Below are positions 6,792-25,153 of a DNA stretch of 64,000 nucleotides, piece by piece. How positions within the stretch are numbered: position 1 is the first letter of the stretch; every line of letters starts with the position of its first letter. Location: positions 1 to 64,000 of the forward strand of contig CADBJR010000004.1 of NCBI GenBank assembly GCA_902795065.1, given 5' to 3'. The notes below the pieces were generated by a model. It was not told where the DNA came from. It was given only the letters and a program-made list of their open reading frames with translations, and did not search any database. The translations under genes and the position numbers were made by a program. Origin of the DNA: an uncultured Coriobacteriaceae bacterium. Lineage in GTDB: Bacteria; Actinomycetota; Coriobacteriia; Coriobacteriales; Atopobiaceae.

Positions 6792-8705
6792 TCAGCGCTC
6801 GAATGCGTGGATACCTGCGAAGATATCGGCAGCGACGGCAGCGGGAATGCCCTCGACGGCTGCGATGTCCTCGACGCTCGCCGCCCTGAGCCGCTTCATC
6901 GATCCGAATACCTTCATGAGCGCCTTCTTGCGCTTGGGGCCCACGCCCTCGATCTCGTCGAGGATCGAGGCGGTCATCGCCTTGTCGCGCAGCTGGCGGT
7001 GGAACGTGATGGCGAAGCGGTGGCTCTCGTCGCGCACCTGCTTGATGAGGTAGAGGGAGGCGGAGCCGCTCGGAAGCACGATAGGGGCGTCGTCCCACGG
7101 GACGAAGACCTCCTCGTCGGATTTGGCGAGACCGCAGACCGGGATGTCGAGCCCGAGCTCGGCGAGCTGGTTCATCGCAGCCGTAAGCTGGGGCTTTCCG
7201 CCGTCGACCACGAGCAGGTCGGGGCGGGATCCGAAGCGCTCGTCAGCCATGCGCTCGGGGGCGTAGCGCCTGCCCAGAACCTCCGACATCGACAGGAAGT
7301 CGTTCGCCTCGTCGAGCTCGGCGCGGACCTTGAAGCGGCGGTACTGGCCCTTGTCCGGGCGCCCGTCGGTGAAGACGACCATACTCGCCACGGTGAAGCT
7401 CCCGTGGAGCGTCGAGATGTCGAAGCATTCGATGCGCAGCGGCGGCGCGTCGAGCGCAAGCGCGCTCTCGAGCTCGAGCAGCGCCTGGTTGGTGCGGTCG
7501 TCGGCATACCCCGTGCGCACCATGTAGCGCATGAGGGCGTGGCGCGCGTTGGACGCCGCCTTATCGAGGAGGCTCTTCTTGGTTCCGCGCTGCGGCACGT
7601 GCAGGCGCACCGAACGGCAGCGCCGCTCGGAAAGCCATCCCTCGATGAGCTCGGCGTCGGAGAGCGCCAGCGGCAGGTCGACCTCGGCGGGGATGTCCTC
7701 CGTCTGGTCGTAGTAGCGCTTGACGAACCCCTCGACGAGCTCCTCCTCGCCCACATCGAGGCCCTTGTCGAGGATGAACTCGACCGTGCGCACGGTGATG
7801 CCCTCGCGCACGACGAAGACGCAGGCGCAGCTGATGGTCTCCTCGCGGTAGAAGCCGATCGCATCGAGGCTCACCGCGGACGAGAAGTCCACCTCCTGCC
7901 GGTCCTCGAGCGCCTCGATGGCGTCGAGGCGCGCCTTGAGCCGGGCCGCCCGCTCGAAATCGAGGTCGGCTGCCGCCTCGTGCATCTGGTCGGTCACCTC
8001 GGCGACGATCCCCGCGCGCTCGCCGCGCAGGAAGCGCTCGACCTGGGCGATGTTGCGCGCGTACTCGACGGTTCCGATCGCGCCGACGCAGACGCCGGGG
8101 CCCTTGCCCACGTGGAAGTCGAAGCAGGGCCTCCCCTTCCCCGCGAGGACGAGGTTTGCCACGGCGGCGTCCTCGGGATGCTTCTCGAGCAGGCGGGTGG
8201 CGCGGCGCCACTCCGCGCAAGTGCCGATGCAGACCGGCACCACCTTGCGGAGCGTCTCGATGGTCTCCTTCGCGGCGCGCGCATCGGTGTAGGGCCCGAA
8301 GTAGCGCGTGCCCTTGCGATGGTGCTCGCGGGTGTACTTGATGCAGGGGAAGACGTCGCCCTCGGTGATGGCGATGAACGGATAGCTCTTGTCGTCCTTG
8401 AGGTCGACGTTGTAGTAGGGATGGTGCTGGGCGATGAGGTTGCGCTCGAGCAGGAGCGCCTCGTGCTCGCTCTCGACCACGACGTAGTCGAACGAGCGGA
8501 CGGCATCCATCATGAGCGGGATCTTGGCGCGCTCGTCCGAGAGCGTGACGTACTGGCGCATGCGGGCGCGCAGGTTCTTGGCCTTGCCCACGTAGATGAC
8601 CGTGCCCGACGCATCCTTCCACAGGTAGCAGCCCGGCTCCTGGGGAACCTGGGAGACTTCGGCCGCGAGCGCGCGGAGCCTCTCTGCCAGCACGTCGTCG
8701 GACAT
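6792..8705 (-). CDS. uvrC: Excinuclease ABC subunit C
   Basis: Makes both incisions in nucleotide excision repair together with UvrB. The 637 residues follow the standard order: GIY-YIG nuclease at the N-terminus (GCYLW, VIYVGKAKNLRARM), a UVR segment (DLDFERAARLKARLDAIEAL), the RNase H-like nuclease domain (ECFDIST, VVDGGKPQL), and C-terminal helix-hairpin-helix motifs (IEGVGPKRKKALM, EGIPAAVAADI). It starts three bases after the stop of the FemX fusion gene, so the two are co-transcribed. uvrA and uvrB are also in this window but in other units. Confidence 0.97.
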   Translation of the reverse strand: MSDDVLAERLRALAAEVSQVPQEPGCYLWKDASGTVIYVGKAKNLRARMRQYVTLSDERAKIPLMMDAVRSFDYVVVESEHEALLLERNLIAQHHPYYNVDLKDDKSYPFIAITEGDVFPCIKYTREHHRKGTRYFGPYTDARAAKETIETLRKVVPVCIGTCAEWRRATRLLEKHPEDAAVANLVLAGKGRPCFDFHVGKGPGVCVGAIGTVEYARNIAQVERFLRGERAGIVAEVTDQMHEAAADLDFERAARLKARLDAIEALEDRQEVDFSSAVSLDAIGFYREETISCACVFVVREGITVRTVEFILDKGLDVGEEELVEGFVKRYYDQTEDIPAEVDLPLALSDAELIEGWLSERRCRSVRLHVPQRGTKKSLLDKAASNARHALMRYMVRTGYADDRTNQALLELESALALDAPPLRIECFDISTLHGSFTVASMVVFTDGRPDKGQYRRFKVRAELDEANDFLSMSEVLGRRYAPERMADERFGSRPDLLVVDGGKPQLTAAMNQLAELGLDIPVCGLAKSDEEVFVPWDDAPIVLPSGSASLYLIKQVRDESHRFAITFHRQLRDKAMTASILDEIEGVGPKRKKALMKVFGSMKRLRAASVEDIAAVEGIPAAVAADIFAGIHAFER

Positions 8706-8708
8706 GGC

Positions 8709-10967
8709 CTAGAACGAGCTCTCGGTGGGCTTGGGATAGTAGCGTGCGAACTTGCGGATCTGGTTGAGCTCGGTTGCACGCACGAGCGCCTCCCGCACGG
8801 GGTCGGTCTCCGCCGCGTAATGCTGGGGGTCGAAGATGCGCCCTTCGGAAACGAGGCCCTTGACCTCGGCGAGCAGCTCGGGGTCGGTGATGTAGCGGTA
8901 GAGCAGGCGCAGCGGGATGAGCGTGTAGAGCGCGGGCTCATCGGCGGTGAGCAGGCGGGCGGGCTTGCCGTCGACGAGGTCCTCCACCATCACGCGGACG
9001 GGGTTCACGCCGCCGCACACGCTGATGTAGGAGTTTCTGCCGATGCGGGGGTTGATCTCGAAGAAGACGTGCTCCCCCGTCTTGGGGTCGCGCTTGACGT
9101 CGATCTCGACGAAGCCCGCGTAGCCGATGCCGCGCAGCATCTCCTCGACGGGTGCGCGCAGCTCCTCCATCGGACGCGTCATCATGGCGACCGAGTTGCC
9201 GCGCATGGTGGGCGCATGGTCCTCGAGCAGCGCCTGCGCGCCGCTCCAGAGCCTGAGCTTGCCCTTCCCGTCCATGTAGCAGGTGATGGCGCCCATGAAG
9301 GTATCGTCGCCCAGGATGCGCTCCTGCAGGATGAAGGGGTCGCCGTAGCCGGCAGCGCGCAGCTTGGCCACGAGCATGTCGAGACCGTCCTGGCCGTCGA
9401 GGGCGTAGACCTTCTTGAACCCCTGCTCGTAGAGGGGCATGAAGGAGGATGAGCGGGCGGGCTTCGCGATGAGCGGGAACGGGATCTCCGAGAGGATGCG
9501 CCCGGTTCCCGCAAGGTCGATCACCTGGGTCTCGGGAACGCGCAGGCCGTGCGCCCGGGCGATATCGCCGAACGCGATCTTGTCGGAAACGGACGCGAAG
9601 GCCTCGGCGGAGGGGATCGGGAGGATGACGTTTCCGGGCAGGCCCTCGCGGATGCGGATGAGCTGCGCGATCTGGGGGTCGGTGTTGGCCATGACGATGA
9701 CGCGCTGCGTGGGATGCGCGCCCGCGATGGCGGCGAGCTCGGAGGCGATGGCGTCGTCGTCGGTCGAGGAGACCGTGCGGCAGGTGAAGATGGACGAGCG
9801 CTCGATGGCGGCGATGAAGGCGAGGTGGAGCGCGATGGACTTCACACCGAACGCCTCGTGGAACTGGCGCCCGAGCGCGTAGATGGAGAGGTCGCCGCCG
9901 AGCAGCACGGGGACGATGTCCTCGCGCGGTGCGGCGGGCTCGGGGGCTGCGGAGGCTGCGCGCAGGTCGCGGACCTTGGCGCGCAGATCCTTGGCGCCCT
10001 GGAGGGCGCGGTAGATAGCGGGCTTCACCACGAGGTCGCGGTCGGGGGCCACGTGGGTGGTCTGCTCGGCGAACTTGCACTTGAACGTGTTGAGCGACGA
10101 GAGCCCCGGATAGGCCTCGGACCCGACGCCCATCTGGTCGAAGGACGTGCAGCCGCGCTCGGCGAGCGCGCAGCTCTCGAAGTAGATGAGGCCGTCGGTG
10201 AGGAGGCTGCGCTTGGGCGCGTCGGTCGCGGAGGCGCCGTAGTAGCGGCCCGCGCGCGAGCCCGCGATGACGACCATGTCCCAGTTCACGAGCCTGCCGT
10301 CGATACGGCCTCCGAAGACGCGGCACCGCTTATCTCCCAGCTCGCGCATCATGTTCTCGTAATCGGACTGCGGCGCGGGTGAGAAGCCGTCGCGCGCGCC
10401 CGTCTCGACCATGAGCCGGTAGAAGTCATCGAAGCAGGCGCGTGCCGCCTCGGTCTCATCGGCGTAGACGGCAGGGCTCTCGCGCAGCGACTTGCGCACG
10501 TCGCGGCGACCGCGGGACCTCATGTGGGCGAGGATGTCGTCGGGGGTGCCGGCGAGGTCGATCACGACCGTCTCGTCATAGGGCACTGTGGAGAGAACCT
10601 CCTCGACGAGGCGCGCGTGGGGCGTGCCGATGTTGAAGCGCACGAAGACGATGCGCCGGTCGCGGCTGCGGATGAAGGAGACGAGGGACTCGAGCACCTC
10701 CCGCTCGAGCGCGTCCGTGCGCTCGACCGCCCACACGGGAGCGTGATGCGCACGCAGGTAGTGGTAGCCGTGCGTCTGGTAGTCCATGAACGCGGCGAGC
10801 GCGATGACCTGCTCCCCCTCGGCGATGGCGACCGTTCCCCAAGGGGTGCGGCCCTCCGCCGTGGACTCGAAGCGCGCCCACGCCTCGGTCTGCTCGACGG
10901 GCAGCTCGATGCAGAGCTCGTCCGCGAGCGCCTCGAATTCGGGGAACGTGAGCGAGATGACGTGCAT
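8709..10967 (-). CDS. FemX/FemAB aminoacyl transferase fused to an ATP-grasp ligase
   Basis: A 752-residue two-domain protein. Residues about 1-340 look like a FemAB/FemX transferase with twin GNAT-like folds (RSRGRRDVRKS, ARDGFSP, RYYGAS, FDQMGVGSE, LNTFKCKFA). These enzymes add amino acids from aminoacyl-tRNA to the peptidoglycan stem or bridge. Residues about 370-752 are an ATP-grasp domain of the carbamoyl-phosphate-synthase/D-aspartate-ligase type, with the nucleotide lysine in PLIAKPARSSSF and the metal ligands in FVEIDVKRD and FFEINPRIG. It sits between murJ and uvrC with 13 bases to murJ. Inference: one polypeptide builds a peptidoglycan cross-bridge by two chemistries. The transferred residues are unknown. 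Confidence 0.8.
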   Translation of the reverse strand: MHVISLTFPEFEALADELCIELPVEQTEAWARFESTAEGRTPWGTVAIAEGEQVIALAAFMDYQTHGYHYLRAHHAPVWAVERTDALEREVLESLVSFIRSRDRRIVFVRFNIGTPHARLVEEVLSTVPYDETVVIDLAGTPDDILAHMRSRGRRDVRKSLRESPAVYADETEAARACFDDFYRLMVETGARDGFSPAPQSDYENMMRELGDKRCRVFGGRIDGRLVNWDMVVIAGSRAGRYYGASATDAPKRSLLTDGLIYFESCALAERGCTSFDQMGVGSEAYPGLSSLNTFKCKFAEQTTHVAPDRDLVVKPAIYRALQGAKDLRAKVRDLRAASAAPEPAAPREDIVPVLLGGDLSIYALGRQFHEAFGVKSIALHLAFIAAIERSSIFTCRTVSSTDDDAIASELAAIAGAHPTQRVIVMANTDPQIAQLIRIREGLPGNVILPIPSAEAFASVSDKIAFGDIARAHGLRVPETQVIDLAGTGRILSEIPFPLIAKPARSSSFMPLYEQGFKKVYALDGQDGLDMLVAKLRAAGYGDPFILQERILGDDTFMGAITCYMDGKGKLRLWSGAQALLEDHAPTMRGNSVAMMTRPMEELRAPVEEMLRGIGYAGFVEIDVKRDPKTGEHVFFEINPRIGRNSYISVCGGVNPVRVMVEDLVDGKPARLLTADEPALYTLIPLRLLYRYITDPELLAEVKGLVSEGRIFDPQHYAAETDPVREALVRATELNQIRKFARYYPKPTESSF

Positions 10968-10979
10968 GGGATCTCCTCC

Positions 10980-12614
10980 CTAGCCCCGCTTGAGGAGGCG
11001 GTTCATGAGGACCGAGACGACATCCGCCTCGGGAACCTTGAGCGCGAGCGCGAGGCCGTAGGTCGCGATGACCGACGGGATGCCCGCGACCACGCAGAGC
11101 AGAACGGAGCTGATGACGATCGAGAAATGAGCGGTGAAGAAGGGCGTCGCGAAGTGCAGGATGGTCCAACCCACGGCAGAGCCGGCGAGGCCGAGCGCGA
11201 GCGAGCGCAGTATTCCCACGGCGAGCGGCCTGAGCGCGATCTGGGGGTAGTCCCGTTTCAGGCTGAGGAACATGAAGGCGTCGAAGAACGCGAAGAAGAT
11301 GAACGAGGTGAAGGGCACGAACCAGAGGCCGATGTGGGGCGCCACGAACAGCAGCAGCACGACCTGGAGCGCGGAGCCGAGCACGTTGGCGAACGCGAAG
11401 AGCTCCATCTTGCGGGTGGACGAGAAGACCTTCTGCAGGTACATGCCCACGCCGTAGACGGGAAGCGACGGGGCGCGGCCCATCAGGTACACCGCCGCGA
11501 GCGCGATCGCCTCGCTCGAGAAGCGCGTGCCGAAGACGGAGATGAGCGGCGTCGAGAACACCATGAGGTAGAGCGCGAAGGGGATGAGGAAGAACAGGAT
11601 CTGCGAGGCGCCCAGCGACACCGTGGAGCAGAACGCGTCAATCCGCCCTTGGGCGAACTCGTCCGAAAGCTCGGTGAACAGCGTGGTCATGATGGGCACG
11701 CAGAGCACGGCATAGGGCAGCGTGTACCAGGGATGCGCGTAGTCTGCCACGGCGGCGCCGACGGCCGTGAACCCCAGCGCGGCGTTGACCTGGATGGACG
11801 CCGTCACGAACGAGGTGATGAGGATCACGATGGAGGGCACGCCGATCTTGAGCGTGTCCTTGAGGGCGGGGTCCTTCAGGTCGATGCGGAACCGCAGGCG
11901 GACGCCGTGGCGGTACATCGAGGGGATCTGGAGCGCCATCTGCATGAACACGCCCAGGGGGTTTCCGATGCCGAGGATGACCAGGCCGAGGACGGGGTTG
12001 GTGTCGGCCAGAACGACGTAGATCAGAAACGACGCGATGGTGCACAGGTTGTAGAAGATGGGGGCGAGCGACGACCACAGGTAGTCGCGCTCGGCGTTCA
12101 CGACGCCGGAGAAGATGGTCGAGAGCGCGTAGAGGACGATCTCGATGGCGAAGAAGCGGAAGAACCAGACGGCTAGGCTGGCATCGAACTCCTCGGCTGC
12201 CGAGAAGGACTGCGTCCAGACGATCTGCGCCGCGAAGGCGATGGAGAGCAGCGTGACCGCCAGGGTGATGACGAGCACGATCGACGTCAGGTTGGAGACA
12301 TAGTCGGACGCGGCGTCGGTGCCCAGCCGCTTCTTGACCGACATGTACACGGGAAGGAATGCCGTGACGAGCATGCCCGCGGTGACGATCTCGTAGATCT
12401 GGGTGGGGAGGTTGTTGGCGACGGCGTAGCAGCTGGCGAGCACCGTGGCGCCCAGCGCGAATGCCTGCGCCCAGGTGCGGACGAACCCGGTGATGCGGCT
12501 CACGATGACGAGCGCGCTCATGAGCATGGCGGACCTGCCCACGGAGGCTACCTGCTCCTCACGGACCTGCACGTCCGTCTCCTCGGGCGTCGTGCCCGTA
12601 TGCTCCTCGGCCAT
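10980..12614 (-). CDS. murJ: Lipid II flippase MurJ (MviN family)
   Basis: Multi-pass membrane protein that flips lipid-linked peptidoglycan precursor outward. The 544 residues contain about 14 hydrophobic segments, beginning with SALVIVSRITGFVRTWA, which carries the conserved arginine motif of MviN proteins. The first 25 residues are an acidic cytoplasmic tail. It starts directly after the ybaK stop (TAGATG) and is followed 13 bases later by the FemX-ATP-grasp gene. This supports a role for that neighbour in cell-wall precursor modification. Confidence 0.93.
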   Translation of the reverse strand: MAEEHTGTTPEETDVQVREEQVASVGRSAMLMSALVIVSRITGFVRTWAQAFALGATVLASCYAVANNLPTQIYEIVTAGMLVTAFLPVYMSVKKRLGTDAASDYVSNLTSIVLVITLAVTLLSIAFAAQIVWTQSFSAAEEFDASLAVWFFRFFAIEIVLYALSTIFSGVVNAERDYLWSSLAPIFYNLCTIASFLIYVVLADTNPVLGLVILGIGNPLGVFMQMALQIPSMYRHGVRLRFRIDLKDPALKDTLKIGVPSIVILITSFVTASIQVNAALGFTAVGAAVADYAHPWYTLPYAVLCVPIMTTLFTELSDEFAQGRIDAFCSTVSLGASQILFFLIPFALYLMVFSTPLISVFGTRFSSEAIALAAVYLMGRAPSLPVYGVGMYLQKVFSSTRKMELFAFANVLGSALQVVLLLFVAPHIGLWFVPFTSFIFFAFFDAFMFLSLKRDYPQIALRPLAVGILRSLALGLAGSAVGWTILHFATPFFTAHFSIVISSVLLCVVAGIPSVIATYGLALALKVPEADVVSVLMNRLLKRG

Positions 12615-13121
12615 CTACACCTCCTCGCGGCAGATATCGGCCAGCGTTGCGCCTAGGAACGATACTACGTCATCCGGCGCGAGGCGGAGCGACAACCCCC
12701 GCCTGCCACCCGAAATCCCTATCTCGTCGAAGAGCTGCGCGGTCTCGTCGATGATCGTGGGGAAGCGCTTCCTCATGCCGATGGGCGACACGCCGCCGCG
12801 CACGTAGCCCGTCGTCGCCTCGAGGTCGCGGACGTGCATCATCGAGAGGCTCTTCTCCCCCGCCGCCGCAGCCGCCTTCTTGAGGTCGAGCTCGGATGCG
12901 GAGGGGATGCAGCAGACCACGTGCCCGCCCGACGGCGTGACCGTGACGAGCGTCTTGAAGGAGCTTTCGGGGTCGTGCCCGAGCAGCTCGGCGACATGGA
13001 CGCCGTAATCGCGTCCCGGTATGCCGTCATCCGCCTCGTAGGTCTCGACGGTGTAGGCAATGCCCGCGCTGTCGAGCTCGCGCAGGGCGTTCGTCTTATC
13101 GAAACGCGCGGAACGTGCCAT
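12615..13121 (-). CDS. ybaK: Cys-tRNA(Pro) deacylase, YbaK/EbsC family
   Basis: Trans-editing protein that hydrolyses cysteine mis-attached to proline tRNA. The 168 residues carry the YbaK core: a catalytic-type lysine in SFKTLV, VVCCIPSASELDLKKAA, and the GGVSPIGMRK loop typical of the family. It starts three bases after the uvrA stop and ends directly at the murJ start, so it lies in one minus-strand unit with uvrA, murJ, the FemX fusion and uvrC. Confidence 0.93.
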   Translation of the reverse strand: MARSARFDKTNALRELDSAGIAYTVETYEADDGIPGRDYGVHVAELLGHDPESSFKTLVTVTPSGGHVVCCIPSASELDLKKAAAAAGEKSLSMMHVRDLEATTGYVRGGVSPIGMRKRFPTIIDETAQLFDEIGISGGRRGLSLRLAPDDVVSFLGATLADICREEV

Positions 13122-13124
13122 CGG

Positions 13125-16001
<2,877 letters not shown>

Positions 16002-22767: not shown

Positions 22768-23964
22768 TTAGAGGCCGGCGAGGCGCTCGATCTGGGCAAG
22801 GCGGTCGTTGAAGCGCGCGGTGGCGTCGTCGATCTTGTCGCCCGCCTCCGCGACCTTCTCCGTGGGGGTGACGGCCTTCTTGGGCGCAGGTCCCAGAAGG
22901 ATCGTGGCCACGAGGTCGGAGAGCGCGTCCGTGAAGAACTTCTTGTCCTCGGCCGACATGTTGTCGAGCTTCTGGAGCATGAGCGAGAGCGAGCCGTTCT
23001 TCACGCTGTCGGTGAGGCCGGAGAACGTGACCTCGCCCGTCGACTCGGCGAGCTTGTAGAGGATCGTGACGAAGCGCTCGCGGCCTGCCTCGTCCATCGT
23101 CTTGAGCCATGCGTTGAGGCGCTTGCCCGTCTTGTAGGAGTCGTAGGAGACGGCGCGCTGGATGTCGAAGTCGGTCCCCTCGATCTCCCACGAGAAGGGC
23201 GCGTGCTGCAGCAGGCCGGGGTTGGTGCTGCGCACGATGACGGGGGTGATCTCACGGCCCTCGAAGATGAGGCCGATGATGGACTCCTCGGGGATGGTCT
23301 TGTCGACCAGCGCCGCGGTGGTGGGCCAGGCGGCATCGGACATGCAGGCCTCGTTGAGGCCGGGGCCGTCATGCGAGAAGCACTTCTCGACGCGCAGGCG
23401 CACGAGGTCGTCCGCCTTGAGCACGGCGTAGACGGCGAGGTTGCCGCCCTTGGAGTGGCCGCCCACCCAGAGGTCGCCCTTGAACTGCTCGGCGGCGAGC
23501 AGCAGATAGCCCCCTGCCGTGATCTGCGCGGGAACGGCGGCCGCGAAGGCCATGTTGAAGTCTTCCTTCCAGCCGATCAGCGTGTTGTCGGTGCCGCGGT
23601 AGGCCACGTAGGTGCCCTTGTCATCGGGGAGCCTGAAGCAGATCGCGGAGAACTGCTGCTCCTCGACCTTCGAGGACTTCTCGTAGTGGAGGCACGCGAC
23701 GACGTCCTTGAAGCGCGGGCTCGCGGCGATGGCCTTGAGCAGCTCCTCGGTCTCGCGCGGATCGTGCAGCGGCGCGACCATGCCGAGGAGGCTGCCGAAG
23801 CCGAAGGTCTCATAGAGGGTCTGGCCCTCCTTGGTGCGCACGGGGGAATCTTCGGGATAGCGCACGTAGGCGAGCCACGAGAAGATGAGGCTGTCGACGC
23901 GGTTGATGGCACGCTCGGCGAACGTGTCGGGGTTCTCGCGCACGTAGTCGATGATGTTTGCCAT
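22768..23964 (-). CDS. DUF2974 (Mbeg1-like) lipase-fold protein
   Basis: Alpha/beta hydrolase fold protein of the Mbeg1-like family, common in gut Gram-positives. It is a cytoplasmic protein without a signal peptide. The ATG at 23964 with AGGAGG upstream gives 398 residues. The segment TYVAYRGTDNTLIGWKEDF and the nucleophile elbow GGHSKGGN correspond to those of class 3 lipases. A C-terminal extension of about 120 residues is charged and helical. It lies directly downstream of a paralogue with the same N-terminus (MANIIDY). Enzymatic substrate unknown. Confidence 0.75.
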   Translation of the reverse strand: MANIIDYVRENPDTFAERAINRVDSLIFSWLAYVRYPEDSPVRTKEGQTLYETFGFGSLLGMVAPLHDPRETEELLKAIAASPRFKDVVACLHYEKSSKVEEQQFSAICFRLPDDKGTYVAYRGTDNTLIGWKEDFNMAFAAAVPAQITAGGYLLLAAEQFKGDLWVGGHSKGGNLAVYAVLKADDLVRLRVEKCFSHDGPGLNEACMSDAAWPTTAALVDKTIPEESIIGLIFEGREITPVIVRSTNPGLLQHAPFSWEIEGTDFDIQRAVSYDSYKTGKRLNAWLKTMDEAGRERFVTILYKLAESTGEVTFSGLTDSVKNGSLSLMLQKLDNMSAEDKKFFTDALSDLVATILLGPAPKKAVTPTEKVAEAGDKIDDATARFNDRLAQIERLAGL

Positions 23965-24046
23965 GGAGGCCTCCTTGGAACGGTCCGATACGGAAAGCGT
24001 AGCACACCTGCGCTTTCCGGCCATCACCGTCGGGCCGCGCAGGGCA

Positions 24047-25153
24047 TCATCCGGCGAACGATTTGACGATTCCCTTGAGCGAGAGGTCGGGGGCGAGCTG
24101 GCGGAAGAGGTCTCCGATGACGCTGCGGAACGACTCGCGGGTCTCCTCGGGCATCTTGTTCGCGAAGTCGAGCATGGCGGGCACCGTTTCGATCCAGCGG
24201 TCCCCCATGCTCGCGAAGGTCGTCTCCCCGCTCGCCGCGAAGATGGAGAACAGCGTGTCGACGAACTGCTCGCGCTCCTCGGGGGTCATGTTGGCGACCC
24301 ATTCGTTGAGGCTGCGGTCGACGTGGCGCGCTCCGAGCGAAAGCTGGTCAACGAGCTTGAACGAGCAGCTGTCGATCTTCCATGAGAAGGGATCATGCTG
24401 CATGATGCCCTGCTCGGTCGAGGCGACCACCTGGTAGTCATCCTGCTGCTCGAAGATCATGCCGATGAGCGACTGGTTGGGGATGGTCTTGCGGATGAGG
24501 CCCGCGCGCTTCGCCCATGCCTCGCGCGACATCATCTCGGGCGTGAACCCGGGGCCGTCGTGCGAGAAGGCCGCGCGCAGCCGTTTCGCCGTGCGATCGT
24601 TGCACATGACGGCAGCGTAGACGGCAAGGTTGCCGCCCTTGGAATGGCCGCCCACCCAAAGCTGCCCGTGCGTGATGGAGGCGGCGTGCTCGAGATACTC
24701 GACAGCCTCGCGCTGCGAGGGGATCTCGGTCTCGAAGGCCAGGTTGAAGTCCTCCTTCCACCCGACCAGGGTGTTGTCGGTGCCGCGGAAGGCGACGTAG
24801 GTGATGTTGCCCGGGAACTTGAACGTCATGGCCGAGAATTGCTTCTCCCGCTCGGGATCGACCTCCTCGACGTAGTTGCAGATGCGCATGCCGCGGAAGC
24901 GCGGGCTCGCCGCGACGGCCGCGATCAGGTAGCGGTAGCTATCCGCGTTGCCGGTGATGGCGGTCACCTCGTCCAGGTAGCCCTTGTCGTAGAGGTCCGA
25001 GAACCGCATGCCGCGCTGCGTGCGCGCATCGGCCGCCTGCGCGGGAAGCCGGTAGTACGAGAGCCACGAGAGGATGAGCGAGTCGACGTCGCCCAGCGGA
25101 CGCGCCGTGAGCGGATCGAGCTCGCAGCACGCGTAATCGATGATGTTCGCCAC
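24047..25153 (-). CDS. DUF2974 (Mbeg1-like) lipase-fold protein, paralogue
   Basis: Upstream paralogue of the preceding entry, 368 residues with a GTG start at 25153 and GAAGGAAGAA upstream. It shares the MANIIDY start, RGTDNTLVGWKEDFN and the elbow GGHSKGGN, and FSHDGPGF, which probably contributes the acidic residue. It lacks the long charged tail of its partner. A 9-bp hairpin (23991-24019) separates the two genes. Tandem duplication with divergence of about half the residues is evident. Substrate unknown. Confidence 0.75.
   Translation of the reverse strand: MANIIDYACCELDPLTARPLGDVDSLILSWLSYYRLPAQAADARTQRGMRFSDLYDKGYLDEVTAITGNADSYRYLIAAVAASPRFRGMRICNYVEEVDPEREKQFSAMTFKFPGNITYVAFRGTDNTLVGWKEDFNLAFETEIPSQREAVEYLEHAASITHGQLWVGGHSKGGNLAVYAAVMCNDRTAKRLRAAFSHDGPGFTPEMMSREAWAKRAGLIRKTIPNQSLIGMIFEQQDDYQVVASTEQGIMQHDPFSWKIDSCSFKLVDQLSLGARHVDRSLNEWVANMTPEEREQFVDTLFSIFAASGETTFASMGDRWIETVPAMLDFANKMPEETRESFRSVIGDLFRQLAPDLSLKGIVKSFAG

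Follow-up and report, generated by a model that had tools for sequence, protein, structure and literature searches.

The composition of the peptidoglycan cross-bridge bears on the targets of beta-lactams, on endolysin specificity and on the sensing of wall fragments by the host. With respect to the tRNA-dependent enzymes that build it, K305 of FemXWv is the catalytic residue and K36 and R211 are those holding the UDP diphosphate of the acceptor; the latter two are not known to be needed by every FemABX member. As for ATP-dependent ligation, the D-Asp bridge of Lactococcus lactis is made by AslA and RacD and is amidated by AsnH (PMC4155827). Few peptidoglycan types are given for Coriobacteriales in a review (PMC11382707). 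The published wall of Olsenella uli is of type A4beta with an L-Orn-D-Asp bridge, that of Atopobium parvulum has an L-Lys-D-Asp bridge, and that of Eggerthella lenta was reported as A1gamma. No paper on a fusion of a Fem-type and an ATP-grasp domain was found in the open literature; an earlier mention is possible.

In this study, we describe such a fusion in a coriobacterium of the Atopobium/Olsenella family. The window, that is, the whole stretch of DNA analysed, comprises 64,000 nucleotides, and the fused gene and its neighbours are located in it as follows:

6792 to 8705, minus strand: uvrC (family search), 3 bp downstream of the fusion and a syntenic marker in relatives
8709 to 10967, minus strand: fused Fem–ATP-grasp protein of 752 aa (ORF, profile and structure comparisons)
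8712 to 9938, minus strand: ATP-grasp ligase domain, about residues 344-752 (family profile, fold match)
9924 to 9968, minus strand: interdomain linker, about residues 334-348 (AF2 pLDDT <50 at 340-343)
9969 to 10967, minus strand: Fem-type domain, about residues 1-333 (family profile, fold match)
10980 to 12614, minus strand: murJ, lipid II flippase family (profile search), 12 bp upstream of the fusion
12615 to 13121, minus strand: ybaK, Cys-tRNA(Pro) deacylase family (family search)
13125 to 16001, minus strand: large ORF, named uvrA by sequence reading and not by family search; same cluster in relatives

The 752-aa ORF starts with ATG, contains no internal stop and consists of a FemAB/FemX-fold domain at the N-terminus and an ATP-grasp ligase domain at the C-terminus. 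Its AF2 model had a mean pLDDT of 93 and two folded domains, with values below 50 only at residues 340-343, and a pTM of 0.60; the confidence covers each domain and not their mutual orientation. A single-sequence PDB search with the fusion returned nothing useful. Both halves were nevertheless settled by family profiles together with the AF2 fold, in agreement with an earlier note on this DNA, made from the sequence alone, which had placed two bridge-building chemistries in one 752-residue polypeptide. A frameshift or chimeric-assembly artefact was ruled out, as independent assemblies and a complete reference chromosome all contain the fusion unbroken.

Of the 298 genomes of the class, 191 matched at least one of the halves. 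Besides the window genome, at least six other Coriobacteriales assemblies carry intact fusions: Coriobacteriales OH1046 (G169, 74% identity to the window fusion), the MAG contig CAMOLV010000120 (75%) and, with 53-47% identity, G206, G081, G234 and Slackia heliotrinireducens (G239), in which the fusion sits on the complete chromosome. A contig scan with exact peptide patterns of close relatives, whose reach is close relatives and not distant phyla, yielded two loci, and no plasmid record matched 80% of the fusion at a single place. Most relatives have the halves as two separate genes, as a rule still within the murJ-uvrC neighbourhood (adjacent in G115, G280 and G286), and each of the two domain trees shows three or more changes of the fused label. 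The domain pair, for which the earlier note had proposed a search across Coriobacteriia, occurs across the order Coriobacteriales, mostly split over two neighbouring genes, and the fusion of these two known bridge chemistries is real and recurrent. It must be noted that the fusion itself is the unusual part, since each chemistry was already known; the suggestion of an unusual cross-bridge stands for the fusion and not for the bridge, D-Asp bridges being the type published for relatives.

Regarding the ATP-grasp half, its single-sequence matches were all sub-threshold (NF009402, 5e-7; PF02655, 0.006). Profile searches with the family alignment reached carbamoyl-phosphate synthase (8e-14), 2pn1 (3e-7) and VanA (5e-6), and the C-terminal half of the AF2 model gave Z scores of 25.3 against 2pn1 and 24.3 against PylC (VIA-align). 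An ATP-grasp fold with conserved ATP/Mg residues is present; the conserved positions are K463, K502, K519, Q548, D555, N591, D623, K625, N639 and R641, among which K502, N639 and R641 do not vary over 28 sequences, and relatives mostly have E or D at the position of E637. In the tree, the window ligase belongs to clade II; a support of 100/100 and a long branch set this clade apart from clade I. Clade I is presumed to be the Asl-type clade, and the window ligase falls outside it, with lactobacillar homologues selected for their gene context, and not the reference AslFm/AslA sequences, standing for that clade. The clade I gene of Latilactobacillus curvatus adjoins an amino-acid racemase gene near aspS, that of Lactobacillus crispatus adjoins asnB, and that of Subdoligranulum is followed by a racemase gene and then by an asparagine-synthase-like ORF (named from sequence). 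In O. uli (G121), a clade I ligase gene followed by a racemase gene lies beside uvrC. Given these racemase and asparagine-synthase neighbours and the D-Asp wall of O. uli, clade I is best read as D-Asp ligase. On the tree, the ATP-grasp half is a distant sister of this D-aspartate-ligase-like clade found near racemase and asparagine-synthase genes, and this kinship favours D-Asp as the ligated residue. The designation of plain D-Asp ligase was not accepted, as the window ligase is in a separate clade; the likeness to D-aspartate ligases raised in the earlier note is a likely analogy and not an identity, the clade being separate and mostly without a racemase neighbour.

The Fem half matched PF02388 (FemAB) at residues 114-213 (E 4e-7, 29.6 bits, Pfam cut-off 24) and the GNAT family PF13480 (E 1e-6). 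In profile searches, the alignment of its family found FemX of S. aureus (6snr, 1e-35) and FemXWv (4ii9, 1.5e-22), and VIA-align gave a Z score of 27.6 for residues 1-324 of the AF2 model against 6snr and of about 25.5 for the Fem half against FemXWv. K296 aligns with K305 of FemXWv and is invariant, together with D277, F295 and F299, in 22 Fem sequences of three families; R154 and R158 are likewise invariant. The positions of K36 and R211 of FemXWv, both of which are present in the aligned S. aureus FemX, correspond to E34 and A198, and in the window's Fem family as a whole these acceptor (diphosphate) residues are replaced by E or Q and by A or S, respectively. Therefore, the Fem half either binds its acceptor in another way or departs from a standard transferase. 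An ordinary FemX orthologue was ruled out by the low identity and the missing K36 and R211, and the Fem half is a branch of its own within the FemAB family. The earlier name FemX-type is thus correct as to the FemAB profile, the FemX fold and the K305 equivalent, and not as to orthology or the K36 and R211 pair.

The lack of K36 and R211 equivalents is what would be expected if the ATP-grasp half alone made the bridge, from a single D-Asp or D-Glu, and the Fem half were a non-catalytic module for binding or targeting the precursor. O. uli also fits this explanation, as it has a single D-Asp bridge and no Fem relative of the window's family was detected in it by profile search. We consider it doubtful, nevertheless, in view of the invariance of K296, D277, F295 and F299 over three families and because genes of the window's Fem family also stand alone and are paired with ligases of both ATP-grasp clades (of clade I in G037, G115, G280 and G286); some loci contain two or three Fem genes.

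The position of the fusion beside the lipid II flippase gene, as given in the earlier note, was confirmed by the match of murJ to PF03023 (4e-47, 161 bits, cut-off 27); against TIGR01695 it obtained 1e-53 and 182 bits, below the model cut-off of 236. The intergenic gaps in the order uvrA, ybaK, murJ, fusion and uvrC are 3, 0, 12 and 3 bp and, since they are this short (0-12 bp), the five-gene cluster looks co-transcribed. A promoter scan revealed no sigma-70-like site. The murJ-uvrC neighbourhood is kept across Coriobacteriales with variable contents, including Fem genes, ATP-grasp ligases and, in some cases, a racemase gene. Four Fem clusters were distinguished at these loci, and the representatives of three of them matched FemAB at 1e-27 to 1e-108 and that of the fusion's own cluster at 1e-13. 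A FemAB-family gene was located within about 5 kb of 31 of the 34 clade II ligases fetched versus 6 of the 12 of clade I (Fisher p 0.005, phylogeny ignored), and in the three remaining clade II genomes a Fem relative is encoded at another place. Clade II being nearly always near a Fem gene, these data suggest that it acts together with a Fem enzyme. In addition, a DegT/DnrJ-type PLP gene was observed beside an ATP-grasp or Fem gene in L033 (8816-10018), L042, L058, L059, L060, L067 and L068. Elsewhere in the window (22768-25153), two similar adjacent ORFs of 398 and 368 aa look like a tandem duplication.

The MurE protein of the window genome carries EDPA, a non-DAP motif. The form [E/D]DP[A/G], and not DNPR, was found in this genome, in all five other fused genomes tested and in O. 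uli; DNPR, the DAP-type motif, was found in E. lenta, in G033 and in a genome assigned to Cryptobacterium curtum. In the tested sample, the MurE score separated both kinds, and for the class-wide comparison with Fem it was used as a proxy for the motif, checked on 15 genomes. Among the genomes listed as having a close match to Fem, MurE was low-scoring except in G146, which has two MurE matches; in G179, also with a close Fem match, no MurE was found. The association of Fem with non-DAP MurE across the class is suggestive, although phylogeny confounds it, two families accounting for most carriers; Slackia is a useful outlier. In this regard, murE of S. heliotrinireducens (L114) encodes EDPA and not DNPR, although Eggerthellaceae have been described as having DAP (PMC6113628). 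In each of four genomes of genus g14 (G146, G182, G199 and G277), murE was matched twice, the better match reaching the scores of the DAP-type, and these genomes may make two kinds of precursor.

The comparison with published walls has its limits. In A. parvulum (G077), no ligase of the window's family was found by profile or with a lactobacillar query, so its D-Asp bridge is made by another enzyme or the search missed it. In E. lenta (L128, 7188-10694), a clade I ATP-grasp ligase gene adjoins an asparagine-synthase-like ORF, named from sequence; a D-Asp or D-Asn bridge, or another use, is possible there. Both conflicts limit any rule leading from ligase to bridge. The reading as a bridge enzyme gained from the non-DAP MurE and from the ligase-racemase locus of O. 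uli with its D-Asp bridge, and the interpretation given in the earlier note is supported in part.

That the product is a soluble peptide (secondary metabolite or tag) and not peptidoglycan might be proposed from the resemblance of the Fem half to the streptothricin synthases Sbb17 and Sba18 (Z about 23), and from the many small peptides made by ATP-grasp peptide ligases. This is very improbable, however, for genes whose murJ-uvrC position is kept across families, whose carriers almost all have a non-DAP MurE and which occur broadly in the order and not in sporadic cluster contexts.

D-aspartate ligase genes are usually, if not always, linked to an aspartate racemase gene. Concerning the supply of D-amino acids, a racemase gene was present in 3 of the 34 clade II loci, namely the fused locus of G234, in which it adjoins murJ, and two others. 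The window locus has no racemase gene; the only Asp/Glu racemase-family gene found in its genome is an amino-acid racemase on contig C10 (L074), beside a sugar-kinase-like ORF, and no glutamate racemase was seen in this genome (97% complete). A single gene of the Asp/Glu racemase family, presumably that of glutamate racemase, was found in each of OH1046, G206, G081 and S. heliotrinireducens. The model of D-amino acid aminotransferase, TIGR01121, matched none of 10 genomes at E 1e-10. Most carriers examined thus presumably lack a dedicated Asp racemase, with D-Glu as a possible alternative to D-Asp. The scarcity of racemase neighbours, the separate long branch of clade II and the DegT-type PLP gene beside several of the ligases would also suit two active domains of which the ligase adds a non-D-acidic residue or acts elsewhere, for instance by placing glycine or a different residue on the D-Glu alpha-carboxylate. 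This is unlikely in our view, given that the tight link to Fem genes and non-DAP MurE fits work on a side-chain bridge and that two clade II loci besides the fused one of G234 do hold a racemase gene.

In attention to both folds, the active-site conservation, the fusion or adjacency of the genes, the non-DAP MurE and the sister position of the ligase to D-Asp-ligase-like genes, all of them computed here, we propose that the fusion is probably a bifunctional peptidoglycan cross-bridge synthase, adding a residue from aminoacyl-tRNA and an ATP-ligated, most likely D-acidic, residue. Aminoacyl-tRNA would supply the glycine or L-amino acid that the Fem domain transfers, and the ATP-grasp domain would activate a carboxylate, most likely of D-Asp or D-Glu, as acyl phosphate and ligate it to an amine. 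Together they would build a bridge of at least two residues on the L-Lys or L-Orn side-chain amine of a cytoplasmic precursor, which MurJ would then flip. That a single bridge is the work of both domains is inferred, and so are the amino acids joined to it, the order in which they are added and the precursor that accepts them, be it lipid II or UDP-MurNAc-pentapeptide. Against the proposal stand the few racemase genes at clade II loci and the single racemase-family gene of several carriers, the absent K36 and R211 equivalents, the long branch between the two clades and the conflicting walls of A. parvulum and E. lenta. Assembly before flipping, as put forward in the earlier note, follows from the cytoplasmic location of ATP and aminoacyl-tRNA, and gene order only hints at it. 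The chances are even that a single polypeptide makes a two-residue bridge by aminoacyl-tRNA transfer and ATP ligation, possibly with a handover between its own active sites, in a pair that acts from separate genes across Coriobacteriales and was repeatedly fused and split. The prediction is that a D-Asp bridge of one residue results where a clade I ligase works alone, as in O. uli, and that the combination of Fem and ligase yields two or more residues. If true, this would explain genetically how cross-bridges are made in an order whose members are common in the gut and mouth, and would provide a natural enzyme with two active sites for studying tRNA- and ATP-dependent bridge synthesis together.

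Compared with known systems, the Fem half shares with FemXWv of Weissella and with FemX and FemA of S. aureus a common fold (Z 24-28), the K305-equivalent lysine and Pfam FemAB membership, but it has only 17-19% identity to them, no K36 and R211 equivalents and a ligase attached at its C-terminus. Sbb17 and Sba18, the aminoacyl-tRNA-dependent peptide synthases of streptothricin, have the Fem-type fold in common with it; they differ in being antibiotic makers, and their solved chains contain no ATP-grasp domain. PylC, the D-ornithine:L-lysine ligase of pyrrolysine synthesis, has the same ATP-grasp fold (Z 24) and joins D-Orn to the epsilon-amine of Lys, which is the same kind of bond, although its substrate is free lysine and not a cell-wall precursor and the identity is 14-15%. 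AslFm of Enterococcus faecium and AslA of Lactococcus lactis have the ATP-grasp fold and the bridge context in common with the window domain, which differs in its separate clade, its fusion to Fem and the racemase neighbour that it mostly lacks. The lactobacillar homologues show 22-28% identity over 98-99% of the window ATP-grasp domain, and two of the three have a racemase or asparagine-synthase gene beside them, which is the setting known for aslA.
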